A program made the translations under genes and the position numbers. A DNA stretch of 64,000 nt from an uncultured bacterium (GTDB lineage: Bacteria > Bacillota > Clostridia > Lachnospirales > Lachnospiraceae). Positions within the stretch are counted from its first letter, which is position 1. Every line of letters starts with the position of its first letter. The notes under the pieces were generated by a model, which did no database searches, was not told the DNA's origin, and saw only the letters and a program-made list of their open reading frames with translations. The stretch is from the NCBI GenBank assembly GCA_947063875.1, contig CAMSTY010000012.1:1-64000 (forward strand), in the 5' to 3' direction. Below, piece by piece: positions 17,160-64,000 of this stretch.

Positions 17160-18386
17160 ATGAATATTGTTGAAGTATTGATGAACACAATACAAAGCTC
17201 CGGATTTGCCGCCATCACCTCCAGGCAGGCCATCATGCTGCTCGTATCTTTTGTACTGCTTTATATGGCAATCGTGAAAAAGTTTGAGCCGCTTCTTTTG
17301 CTTCCGATTTCATTCGGAATGATGTTGGCCAATTTGCCTCTGGCTGGATTGATGTATGATGCTCAGGAAGCCGCACATGCCGGTCTGACCGCGGCGGTGG
17401 CGAGCGGTTCCCAGGAACAGATCCAGGCAGCCGTGACAGAGCTTGCCAGTACTCACTGGTATGATTCCGGTGTGCTTCGTATTATTTACATGGGGGTAAA
17501 AAGTTCCATTTTCCCCTGTCTGATCTTTATGGCGGTAGGATCGATGACGGATTTCGGCCCGCTGCTGGCCAATCCGATCAGCCTGCTTTTGGGGGCAGCG
17601 GCACAGTTTGGTATCTACGTGGCATTTATGATTGCGATCAGCATCGGAATCTTTTCTCCGGAACAGGCCGCTTCCATTGCCATTATCGGCGGCGCTGACG
17701 GCCCGACGGCAATCTTCCTTACCAGCAAGCTGGCGCCGGAACTTTTAGGGCCGATTGCGGTTGCCGCATATTCCTACATGGCCCTGATCCCGCTGATTCA
17801 GCCGCCGATCATGCGCCTTCTGACTACGGAGAAAGAACGGCAGGTAAAAATGAGCCAGCTGCGTCAGGTTTCCAAGGCAGAGAAGATCGTGTTCCCGATT
17901 GCCTGTACTGTATTCTGCGTGCTGATGCTGCCGTCTGTGGCGCCGTTGATCGGTATGCTGATGCTGGGTAATCTGTTCCGTGAGAGCGGTGTTACCGACC
18001 GTCTGAGCGATACCGCGCAGAACGCACTGAGCAATATTGTTACCATTATGATCGGAACTACCGTAGGCGCTACTGCCAACGGTGAGCAGTTCTTACAGGT
18101 GCAGACACTGGCGATTGTCGGCCTGGGCCTTACGGCATTTGCATTTTCCACTGCCGGCGGCGTGATGTTAGGAAAGCTGATGTACCTTATTACCGGCGGA
18201 AAGATCAATCCGCTGATTGGCTCCGCAGGCGTGTCTGCAGTGCCGATGGCTGCCCGTGTATCTCAGGTTGAGGGAAGAAAAGCCAATCCCACCAACTTCC
18301 TGTTGATGCATGCCATGGGTCCTAATGTGGCCGGCGTTATCGGATCTGCCGTAGCAGCAGGATTTTTGCTGATGTTGTTCCAGTAG
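17160..18386 (+). CDS. Na+-translocating decarboxylase beta subunit (OadB/GcdB/MadB family)
   Basis: Multispanning; IIGGADGPTAIFLTSKLAPELLGPIAVAAYSYMALIPLIQPPIM and GAAGVSAVPMAARV-type motif (GSAGVSAVPMAARV). Confidence 0.93.
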   Translation: MNIVEVLMNTIQSSGFAAITSRQAIMLLVSFVLLYMAIVKKFEPLLLLPISFGMMLANLPLAGLMYDAQEAAHAGLTAAVASGSQEQIQAAVTELASTHWYDSGVLRIIYMGVKSSIFPCLIFMAVGSMTDFGPLLANPISLLLGAAAQFGIYVAFMIAISIGIFSPEQAASIAIIGGADGPTAIFLTSKLAPELLGPIAVAAYSYMALIPLIQPPIMRLLTTEKERQVKMSQLRQVSKAEKIVFPIACTVFCVLMLPSVAPLIGMLMLGNLFRESGVTDRLSDTAQNALSNIVTIMIGTTVGATANGEQFLQVQTLAIVGLGLTAFAFSTAGGVMLGKLMYLITGGKINPLIGSAGVSAVPMAARVSQVEGRKANPTNFLLMHAMGPNVAGVIGSAVAAGFLLMLFQ

Positions 18387-25648: not shown

Positions 25649-25747
25649 GGGGCTTTTAGGGAAGAAACAGGATAGGGCATCATAAAGTTTTGCTGGACAG
25701 ATACCGGCAGCGGTGATAAAATAAAAGAACTGAAACGCAATAAGAGG

Positions 25748-25835
25748 GAGCTCGTGCGGCGGGCTGAGAGGAAGTAATCGAACTTCGACCTTTATTACCT
25801 GATTTGGATAATGCCAACGTAGGGACTTGTGCGAA
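25748..25835 (+). promoter_or_regulatory. TPP riboswitch (THI element) aptamer
   Basis: Conserved CTGAGAGGAAG...ACCTGATTTGGATAATGCCAACGTAGGGA upstream of thiC. Confidence 0.95.
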
Positions 25836-25986
25836 ATGTGATGACCATAAGGCAGAGGGAATGTCAAAAGGGCAGGATGCTTTTTTGAGGGCCAGAAGAG
25901 CCGGCGGGATGTGCCGGCGGCGAGGCTTTGAGAGATCTGCCCGGATGAAACGATCCGATGGAATATTGTCGGAATGAAAAAGTGGG

Positions 25987-37899: not shown

Positions 37900-38210
37900 T
37901 ATACACAAGACTGCGATGAAAAGAAAAAGTAGCGGCCCATAACCTCCACACAGAAAGCAGCCGGAAGATGAGAGGCGCGTGGATGGCGGAACGTGAATAC
38001 ATCTTTGAGCATCACACCGAACAAAGGGGAGTCCTGTCTGGAGGAACCATTTAAGTAGGCTGTGACGGTAAGCCTGCACCCGTTATCGTGCCAGAGCATC
38101 GGTTTTTTGGTGCTTGCTAAGGTAGGCGGTGTGAGCCGCTTATGAAAAAAGGTGGTAACACGAGAATATGCCTCGTCCTTTGGTAGAGATACGAAGGGAC
38201 GAGGTTTTTT
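37900..38210 (+). promoter_or_regulatory. T-box leader upstream of tyrS
   Basis: AAGGTGGTAACACGAG T-box near 38150, candidate UAC specifier in GTGAATACATC at 37998-38000, terminator CCTCGTCCTTTGG...CGAAGGGACGAGGTTTTTT. Confidence 0.92.
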
Positions 38211-61602: not shown

Positions 61603-61690
61603 GTTTAAAGGAGGGGCCGGGAATGAAGGGGGGATTCTGTAATTGCGGGTTGATTTACAAGGCTTGTGTGGGCAATAGTGAATAAAAAAT

Positions 61691-61714
61691 TCTCAAAAAG
61701 TGTACTTTTTGAGA
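61691..61714. promoter_or_regulatory. 24-bp palindromic site 1 TCTCAAAAAGT-GT-ACTTTTTGAGA
   Basis: 11-bp perfect arms with central GT. Confidence 0.9.
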
Positions 61715-61817
61715 AGGAAAAATGAAGCCTAAAAACATGTACATCTTACTATATTATCGTCAAAAAATCAAGAAAATTAATCTCTTTTTCTAGTTAATTT
61801 ATACCATGGAATATTTT

Positions 61818-61841
61818 TCTCAAAAAGTACACTTTTTGAGA
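61818..61841. promoter_or_regulatory. 24-bp palindromic site 2 TCTCAAAAAGT-AC-ACTTTTTGAGA
   Basis: 11-bp perfect arms with central AC; whole site is the exact reverse complement of site 1. Confidence 0.9.
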
Positions 61842-61894
61842 ACAAAAACCGACAACACTCCTGCTATTGCTGAAAGACAGAGGAAAACAGAAAC

Positions 61895-63208
61895 ATGCCC
61901 CAAGAGAAGATATGTAAAACCGTCCGTCAGTACAGCAAAGGGCCCGTCTCTCCGGAAGATATGAGAAAGCTTCAGGAAATCGCAGAGGACTGCCGCAAGG
62001 TGAAGAATTATGTCTATGACCGCTTTGGCGGAATCAAAAGCCTGTCCAAGATATATCCGGGCTATACGGTTCAAAATGAGATGACTGCATCAAAACTGCG
62101 TGAGAAGCTGGGACTGCCAAGCGTTTATTTTTATCTGGCTGTTTTTGATGCCCTGGCAGATATCAAAAGTCAGTGGAACCGCACAAAAACGAAGATTCTG
62201 CAGTTAATCGGGGCAAATGAGAACCTGACGCGGGAGGAAAAGCATTATCTTCGCTTCATTCTGAAAGTCAGCAATGCATTTATCGCTGTGCTGAACCAGG
62301 AACCGATAGAATTGACAGAAGACATACGGAAGCGGTATGAGGAAGTGGCGGGAAAACTAGATAAGGAAAAATTGCACCGTTATCTGTGCCGGCAGGTAAG
62401 GAAATATCATGTGAAGCAGCATGCGGAAGCGGTGACAGGCTTTTCTGCGGCAGAACGGGCTTACCGGTATGGCGATCATGGGATTTACCTGTCTACGAAA
62501 CAGAAACGGCAGCGTGTTTTTGTCCCGTTAACAGACAACAACCAGTACAAGAGCCAGCTTTATATCAAGCTGTATCCGGACCAAAACCGCATTGAGATTA
62601 TGGCGCCTGTCTACATGTCCGTGCGCTCCTATGAGGAGTATACCAGCTGCATCGGCGTTTCCATGGGGATGTTCACTATGCTGACAACCAGCGACGGCCG
62701 TTTCTATGGGACGAAACTGGGGGATTATGAGGCCGGATATGCGGAGTGGATACGGGGACAGACCGCAAGCTACAACTGCAACCGGAGGGATAATCCCGGA
62801 AGAAAGAAATACCTCGCAAAAAAGAAGCGGCTGGAGGAACAGCTTCATGGGTATATCAACCATGAGTTAAATCTATTCCTTCAAAACGAGAAACCTCGAA
62901 GGATTTATATGGTAAAGCTTCCCAAACCGGGGAAAGGCGGAAATATCCGAAAGATCAACAATCAGGTGAATATGTGGCAGCGAGGCTATATCCGCAGCCG
63001 CCTGATGCAGAAATGCAAAGAACAGTCCATAGAACTTGAGGAAGTCCTGGGGAAAGATATCAGCAGGGAATGCAGCTGCTGCAAAGCAACAGGAGAGACA
63101 AAGGGAGTTTCCTTTCACTGTGAAAGCTGCGGCTATACTGCGGATAAAAAGGTAAATGCAGCCAGGAATATATTAAAGCGCGGACTGGAAGGAAAGGTTA
63201 TTCATTAA
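61895..63208 (+). CDS. TnpB-like (OrfB zinc-ribbon) protein with apparently substituted RuvC catalytic residues
   Basis: CSCCKATGETKGVSFHCESCGYTADKKVNAARNILKRG zinc ribbon/RuvC-III region; IGVSMGMFTMLTTSDGRFYG at RuvC-I position; RRIYMVKLPKPGKGGNIRKINNQVNMWQRGYIRSRLMQKCKEQSIELEEVLGKDIS. Confidence 0.8.
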   Translation: MPQEKICKTVRQYSKGPVSPEDMRKLQEIAEDCRKVKNYVYDRFGGIKSLSKIYPGYTVQNEMTASKLREKLGLPSVYFYLAVFDALADIKSQWNRTKTKILQLIGANENLTREEKHYLRFILKVSNAFIAVLNQEPIELTEDIRKRYEEVAGKLDKEKLHRYLCRQVRKYHVKQHAEAVTGFSAAERAYRYGDHGIYLSTKQKRQRVFVPLTDNNQYKSQLYIKLYPDQNRIEIMAPVYMSVRSYEEYTSCIGVSMGMFTMLTTSDGRFYGTKLGDYEAGYAEWIRGQTASYNCNRRDNPGRKKYLAKKKRLEEQLHGYINHELNLFLQNEKPRRIYMVKLPKPGKGGNIRKINNQVNMWQRGYIRSRLMQKCKEQSIELEEVLGKDISRECSCCKATGETKGVSFHCESCGYTADKKVNAARNILKRGLEGKVIH

Positions 63209-63445
63209 ATCATAAGAACAGCGGTCTGGATGAATTCCGGCGGTGAGCCGGGGTTTTACCGCAAGGACCAAGCCGCGGGTTCATGATATAAAAACAAAAA
63301 CGGCATTAGAAGGCAGGGAGAGCCTGCGTATTGGGTATGCCAAGACCCTGTGAACACGAAAACTCACAAAGAGCCGTGACGTAGCAGGGAGCGAAGTGGA
63401 TTTCCACATCATCGCTGAGATGACCAATATGCCTTATTTCAAATA
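63209..63445 (+). ncRNA. Candidate structured RNA (possible omega-RNA/guide scaffold and/or leader of the next gene)
   Basis: Stems: ATCAT(AA)GAAC/GTTCATGAT, GCGG/CCGC, CCGGC-GGTGA-GCCGG, GGCAT/ATGCC, GCAGG-GAGAG-CCTGC, CCCTG/CAGGG, GTGGA-TT-TCCAC. No folding software was run. Confidence 0.45.
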
Positions 63446-63519: not shown

Positions 63520-64000
63520 ATGAGGAATATGCACAAGAGGCAGGTTGAGGATTTTATCAAGCTGTTGGAACAAGCCCATCTGGAGATCAAAAAAGCAGTA
63601 AATACACAGGATTACGAGGTGGCTTCGGATCTTCTCGGCCAATGCCAGGAGGGCGCCATCGGCCTGGGAAATCTGATAGAAAAAGAAGAAGGGGAAGGGG
63701 TCGCTGTGATTCCTTTGCTGGAAGCTTATTGCGAACTGGCGTATCAACTGTATGAGGAACTGCAGCAGGGACAGGAAATCAATGAAAACAGGGTGTATAA
63801 AAACCTGCGCAGGTCTCTGATTCAGATAGAAAACAGCGTGAAATTTGACATTAAGTCCCGCCTGGAGATCGTGTTCTTCCCTTATAAGGCCTCTATGTGG
63901 GACAGTCTTGAGAGCGTCTGGATGGCTGCGGATGCCGACCCGGACTGCGATGCCTATGTGGTGCCGATACCCTATTATGAGAGAAATGCAGACGGGACAC
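63520..64000 (+). CDS. CDP-glycerol glycerophosphotransferase-like protein, N-terminal part (continues beyond the window)
   Basis: Frame is open to the window end: MRNMHKRQVEDFIKLLEQAHLEIKKAV...SRLEIVFFPYKASMWDSLESVWMAADADPDCDAYVVPIPYYERNADG. Confidence 0.6.
   Translation, partial: MRNMHKRQVEDFIKLLEQAHLEIKKAVNTQDYEVASDLLGQCQEGAIGLGNLIEKEEGEGVAVIPLLEAYCELAYQLYEELQQGQEINENRVYKNLRRSLIQIENSVKFDIKSRLEIVFFPYKASMWDSLESVWMAADADPDCDAYVVPIPYYERNADGT

Follow-up and report, generated by a model that had tools for sequence, protein, structure and literature searches.

The window, the whole 64,000-nt stretch of lachnospiraceal DNA that was analysed, carries close to its end a gene for a 437-aa TnpB-like protein (61895-63208, + strand). 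Between the stop of this gene at 63208 and the next start at 63520 lies a gap that holds a structured RNA. The gene beginning at 63520 (+ strand; 63520-64000 within the window, extending to contig position 66078) encodes 852 aa without a Pfam match and is the first of a linked surface-glycan cluster, in which it is followed by a cytidylyltransferase/oxidoreductase fusion and then by a LicD gene. Upstream of the TnpB-like gene, an inverted repeat with left arm TTCTCAAAAAGTGTACTTTTTGAGAA (61690-61715) and right arm TTCTCAAAAAGTACACTTTTTGAGAA (61817-61842) encloses a promoter. Elsewhere in the window, a T-box leader (37907-38183) and a TPP riboswitch (25734-25843) were matched by Rfam with gathering scores reached.

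The TnpB-like protein was characterized by profile search, by alignment with 23 relatives and by structure prediction. It was found to keep the TNB zinc ribbon of TnpB and Cas12f (PF07282, E 1.1e-10), and its AlphaFold2 model (pLDDT 82, pTM 0.60) was matched by Foldseek to the AsCas12f, ISFba1 TnpB and ISDra2 TnpB complexes (E 1e-12 to 7e-9, TM-scores of about 0.5-0.66). When the PDB was searched with a profile of the 23 relatives, chains of Cas12f and TnpB were matched, and guided_TnpB was matched in all 23 members, below the curated cut-off. In the RuvC domain of the window protein, the RuvC-I Asp was replaced (CIGVSMG), the RuvC-II Glu was lost (YMVKLP) and the RuvC-III Asp was replaced (KKVNAARN). 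All three catalytic residues were likewise lost in 23 of 23 aligned relatives, which carry GVSMG/GIAMG-type motifs instead of GIDxG, YMxKLP-type motifs without Glu, and KxNTARN-type motifs instead of DxNAARN. An earlier note made from the letters of this DNA had recognized the relationship to TnpB, which held; it had missed the nuclease-dead state and the promoter flanked by inverted repeats.

The active D-E-D triad, absent from the window protein, was found only in two distant homologues from another clostridial family (L282 and L283; E 3e-77 and 9e-74), which keep GIDKG, VMEQL/VMENL and ADTNAS/SDTNAS. Because these two proteins retain all three RuvC residues and are located in IStron-like elements, it may be concluded that the dead family descends from active TnpBs and that the nuclease was lost. 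The features by which TldRs are recognized were found here, namely the TnpB fold and zinc ribbon, the RuvC loss, a guide RNA at the 3' end of the gene and a stable association with a non-transposon gene. Judged by its predicted fold, its zinc ribbon and its lost RuvC residues, the window protein is thus TldR-like, and its gene is called tldR below. A second, truncated tldR of about 116 aa was observed in the same genome (G000:C3:4518-4865), near glycan-gene fragments and without a detectable guide RNA.

The stretch 63209-63445 behind tldR had been described as a series of nested complementary arms between the TnpB-like stop and the next start. These arms are present, and they fold beyond the level of dinucleotide shuffles (MFE of -77.2 kcal/mol against -60.9 ± 4.6; z -3.58; 1 of 200 shuffles as good). 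No Rfam match was obtained for this stretch, even at E ≤ 1, and the RNA was conserved at about 50 loci. The inferred guide RNA, 63210-63444, coincides almost exactly with the span that had been proposed. Its 5' domain (63210-63288, + strand) is a long branched stem, and the large closing stem noticed earlier, ATCATAAGAAC...GTTCATGAT, proved to be real, with compensatory changes at 10 of 24 pairs in 12 homologues. Conservation is higher in the second set of stems, which forms the core scaffold (63300-63428, + strand; P1, hairpins H1-H4 and P2; covariance model R1). When conserved blocks of 21 sequences were concatenated with the variable hairpin tips removed, compensatory changes were found at 10 of 26 core pairs, and none of 500 shuffles reached the covariation score; core pairing was 94%, compared with 33-44% in slid controls. 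The covariance check on homologous loci that had been suggested therefore gave covariation in both RNA domains.

The core also contains a pseudoknot, in which ATTGG (63330-63334, + strand) pairs with CCAAT at the end of the scaffold (63424-63428, + strand). The 21 aligned sequences do not vary in the pseudoknot, so covariation was uninformative there; its strands differ in step in L014 (TAGG/CCTA, by eye) and in an active relative (CTGGT/ACCAG).

The same kind of RNA was found behind every full-length relative with enough flanking sequence, L014 being the most diverged. A covariance model built without the guide was run on 397 genomes of the family and matched 28 places in 18 of them. No use was made of the protein in this search; a dead tnpB lay at most 1.5 kb upstream at 25 of these places, and the remaining three were all in one genome, G363. 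These three guide RNAs (L212, L228 and L233), of which one is followed after 61 nt by a perfect promoter motif, possibly act in trans. At another place, in S. musculi (L149, G146:C2, at about 4036 kb), the guide RNA carries a tandem-repeated insertion in one hairpin and reaches 304 nt. When the model was run with filters off on 26 kb around two active TnpBs, its best match fell behind one of the two, just where it was expected (E 0.03). Because of this position, the TldR scaffold is very likely the ancestral omega-RNA of an active TnpB.

It was thus right to propose that the TnpB-like gene has a guide RNA of the omega-RNA type whose 3' end carries the guide, and the scaffold resembles that behind an active TnpB. 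The boundaries given with this proposal have to be redrawn. A scaffold consisting of the first stem only (63209-63290), with the guide directly behind it at about 63290, was ruled out by the conserved core and the pseudoknot that lie downstream. Nor are the distal stems a separate leader, since both blocks are conserved together behind dead tnpB genes and the distal block abuts the guide at 63429. The segment 63210-63444 is very probably a single two-domain guide RNA of the nuclease-dead TnpB relative encoded at 61895-63208; the identity of the RNA and the dead state of the nuclease can be regarded as solid.

The guide itself was predicted as ATGCCTTATTTCAAAT (63429-63444, + strand) from an information profile of 41 distinct guides and from homology to an active element. 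The right end of this element, ...TTAGAACCAG, was mapped by eye by comparing two active insertions; when the flanks of L283 were joined, an uninterrupted response-regulator-like frame was obtained (by eye). In the active relative, the pseudoknot strand ACCAG abuts the guide, and because of the homology to this mapped end, the guide of the window is placed directly after CCAAT, starting at 63429. Across the 41 guides, conservation covers positions 1-11 (RTGCCTTATTT), with its weakest points at 3 and 4; positions 12-16 are AT-rich, and the information is near zero from position 17 on. In view of this profile, the guide appears to be 16 nt long and to have a conserved seed. The seed is conserved over 15 genera.

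These data bear on the reading that the locus is a decaying IS605 or IStron remnant, with a pseudogene product and a fossil omega-RNA that have no present function. In its favour, partial copies exist (G000:C3, G012:C132 and G022:C33), and the frames are broken in L225, L234 and L237; in most loci, however, the frames are full-length and open at 48-73% identity, the RNA shows compensatory changes and a conserved guide seed, and the linkage to the inverton and the glycan genes is conserved. Only remote TnpB-type matches (≤27% identity) were obtained from the plasmids and phages searched, and no element ends were found around the window protein. A functionless remnant is considered very unlikely.

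The surroundings of tldR were compared between loci. At nearly all of them, the downstream genes encode LicD proteins, cytidylyltransferases, DegT aminotransferases, glycosyltransferases, epimerases or Polysacc_synt_2 proteins. L012, which has no glycan genes nearby, is the exception, and in L021, L014 and L019 the single downstream genes picked matched only methyltransferase or radical-SAM families. Up to four tldR copies occur per genome, each at a different cluster. In the window's own genome, a paralogue 50% identical to the gene at 63520-66075 was observed at the head of a cluster without tldR (L176, G000:C87). The pair of dead TnpB and guide RNA, as predicted here, heads surface-glycan clusters in gut Lachnospiraceae, often behind an invertible promoter.

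Because the RNA is flanked by tldR and the glycan genes, all in one orientation, with the start codon 75 nt past the guide and co-transcription possible, it could also be read as a 5' leader of the downstream glycan operon, riboswitch-like or an attenuator and unrelated to the TnpB-like gene. Against such a leader, the RNA stood behind a dead tnpB at 25 of the 28 places found without the protein, the genes downstream of it vary from locus to locus and include no glycan gene in L012, most motif-bearing glycan clusters without tldR also have no such RNA (L152 and L153), and a related scaffold is found behind an active TnpB. The leader is thus very unlikely, and a guide RNA of the dead TnpB is the reading retained.

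The promoter upstream of tldR lies on the - strand (61743-61771), with the -35 box TTGATT at 61771-61766, a 17-nt spacer and the -10 box TAAGAT at 61748-61743, as identified by comparison across loci. In this assembly it points away from tldR, that is, in the OFF orientation. The two arms of the surrounding repeat are 101 nt apart and complementary at 26 of 26 positions. An inverted-repeat pair was found upstream in 16 of 23 loci, with spacers of 99-132 bp; the promoter is directed toward tldR in five loci (L003, L004, L006, L018 and L020) and away from it in four (L001, L007, L010 and L032), the window's orientation included. The segments of the near-identical loci L010 and L018 match, at 97%, only when one of them is inverted. 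Judged across loci, the segment can be considered a phase-variable promoter, or inverton. Recombinase-like genes, recognized by reading the translations only, lie upstream of tldR in L006, L008, L014 and L022, and none adjoins tldR in the window. At one locus (L018/L069, G022:C33), a 432-bp inverted duplication of the tldR start and the invertible promoter precedes tldR, which suggests a side product of inversion or recombination. The promoters of three glycan clusters without tldR (L171, L179 and L184) share TTGA...GACGATATTAT...TAAAGT with the invertible promoters.

Candidate targets of the guides were sought. A motif, AAGTWTAT-RTDYYTTATTW, was found promoter-proximal at the heads of glycan clusters, where its second part matches guide positions 1-11. 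It also heads other glycan clusters, some of which have neither tldR nor guide RNA (L152 and L153). Patterns derived from the 3' end of the RNA matched AAGTWTAT-RTRYYTTATTW a short way past the RNA in L029-L031, and a variant of it in L032. In 24 genomes of the genus, three perfect motif matches were found against none for the reversed-pattern control, and in another search, with D at position 11, 14 of 14 perfect matches were intergenic at glycan-cluster heads; when one or two mismatches were allowed, the excess over the control was weak or gone, and none was left in a search with two. In L150, L151, L152 and L156, the cluster heads often carry a AAGTATATATAYCTTATTA-type motif twice, with 55-400 bp between the copies. 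The site composed of AAGTWTAT and the seed resembles the TAM and seed match expected of a TnpB descendant; a TAM within AAGTWTAT is a candidate only, and the active relatives seem to use another one (GGAG-like).

Individual guides were also compared with possible partners. An S. musculi guide, GTATCTTATTTAA, matched another locus of its genome over 13 nt exactly, and for the S. musculi guide GTATCTTATTT the candidate promoter partner is AAGTATATGTATCTTATTT. The L032 guide agreed with locus M1 at 16 of 18 positions, and the L024 guide with G010:C244 over 11 nt exactly. Heads of non-self glycan clusters with 0-1 seed mismatches were found in S. musculi, G010, G023, G147 and G363, whereas the motif of a guide's own locus always carried 2-4 seed mismatches; self-avoidance was not significant (permutation p 0.19 and 0.36). 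The commonest guide, ATGCCTTATTT, and the commonest motif at clusters without tldR, ATATCTTATTA, differ at three positions.

It had been proposed to search for the window's guide at promoters of its own genome, and this search gave no convincing target: with up to three mismatches, the draft genome contained 32 matches compared with 63 for the reversed control, none of them at a glycan promoter. Several single candidates were rejected. Site C90:196 lies upstream of a small gene without a glycan link, window position 18174 is coding, and the promoter of the paralogous cluster G000:C87 has no seed match. A sequence inside a glycan gene of several genomes, AGTATATATACCTTATT, encodes the invariant peptide VYIPYF/Y, with codons that vary as usual.

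The mechanism that we propose would operate as follows. When the inverton faces tldR, this gene, its guide RNA and the glycan cluster linked to them would be transcribed. The TldR-guide RNA complex would bind a T/A-rich TAM, contained in AAGTWTAT, next to a match to the guide seed; such sites are promoter-proximal at other glycan clusters, where transcription would be blocked. Surface polysaccharides would in this way be expressed phase-variably and to the exclusion of one another, a logic parallel to that of TldRs silencing rival flagellins. DNA binding, the TAM, repression and mutual exclusion are in this scheme inferred, and the target step is held with moderate confidence. Overall, a guide RNA of a domesticated, nuclease-dead TnpB serving phase-variable RNA-guided silencing of rival glycan clusters is given a probability of roughly two in three. 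The dead TnpB and its guide RNA would then probably be an RNA-guided switch between surface coats.

The same RNA and protein might act otherwise, by autoregulation of their own locus, by activation or, as Cas12m does, by silencing of foreign DNA. The window's guide has no target in its own genome, at several loci a motif copy lies directly behind the RNA itself, and dead Cas12m-like proteins are described as protecting by silencing (PMC10442227). Against this stands a guide seed that has been kept over 15 genera and corresponds to a motif in the chromosome at the heads of glycan clusters. Were the guides directed at changing invaders, no such conservation would be expected, and the own motif copies carry 2-4 seed mismatches. 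Such another action is considered rather unlikely, and silencing of rival glycan clusters is preferred.

A wider form of this silencing is put forward tentatively, at somewhat less than even odds: throughout the family, each cluster might have its inverton, dead TnpB and guide, its own promoter being spared and the rivals silenced so that one coat is shown, while orphan guides such as those of G363 would share TldR in trans. If the proposal is true, RNA-guided transcription factors have a part in how common gut commensals change the surface that phages and the immune system meet, and the coordination of many polysaccharide loci in Gram-positive gut bacteria would become directly testable. A comparison from active to dead is also offered, from IStron TnpB to TldR, in which the guide RNA can be traced. 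No TnpB or TldR at polysaccharide loci was found in the literature searched, which did not extend to the first TldR paper or to the TnpB classification of 2023. New here, as far as the predictions go, is a glycan-linked TldR-like group with an RNA family outside Rfam, a conserved seed and an inverton.

Known TldRs are mainly described as flagellin regulators. Repression at flagellin without cutting, with a 6-nt seed, has been shown (PMC13418256). The TldR associated with fliC in prophages of enterobacteria (Wiegand et al. 2024, as cited in PMC13418256) is a TnpB that has lost its nuclease and is directly followed by its guide RNA. The window family is alike in both respects, in the short conserved seed and in the linked gene being a rival version of the one presumed to be silenced. 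It differs in being chromosomal in Lachnospiraceae and linked to glycan clusters instead of flagellin, and in having an RNA family of its own, in which the 5' domain is long; it was not found in the phages searched. The csrA-associated TldRs of gut Firmicutes are likewise chromosomal, occur in gut commensals at several loci per genome and show predicted cross-targeting and upstream inversions of about 120 bp; their targets lie in the coding regions of flagellin genes, and they are accompanied by csrA and hin (PMC13418256), whereas the window family is found with glycan clusters and promoter-proximal sites, and no csrA was seen.

The clostridial IStron/IS605 TnpBs L282 and L283 share the fold and the zinc ribbon, and in their related scaffold, too, a pseudoknot borders on the guide; they keep D-E-D and insert in genes, whereas all three residues are missing from the window protein. 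In Bacteroides, capsule loci are controlled by invertible promoters and by cross-inhibition through UpxZ proteins, which inhibit antitermination. Several surface-polysaccharide loci per genome, invertible promoters and a proposed cross-silencing by the first gene of the locus are common to both systems, but the Bacteroides inhibitor is a protein that acts on antitermination, whereas an RNA-guided DNA-binding protein is proposed here.
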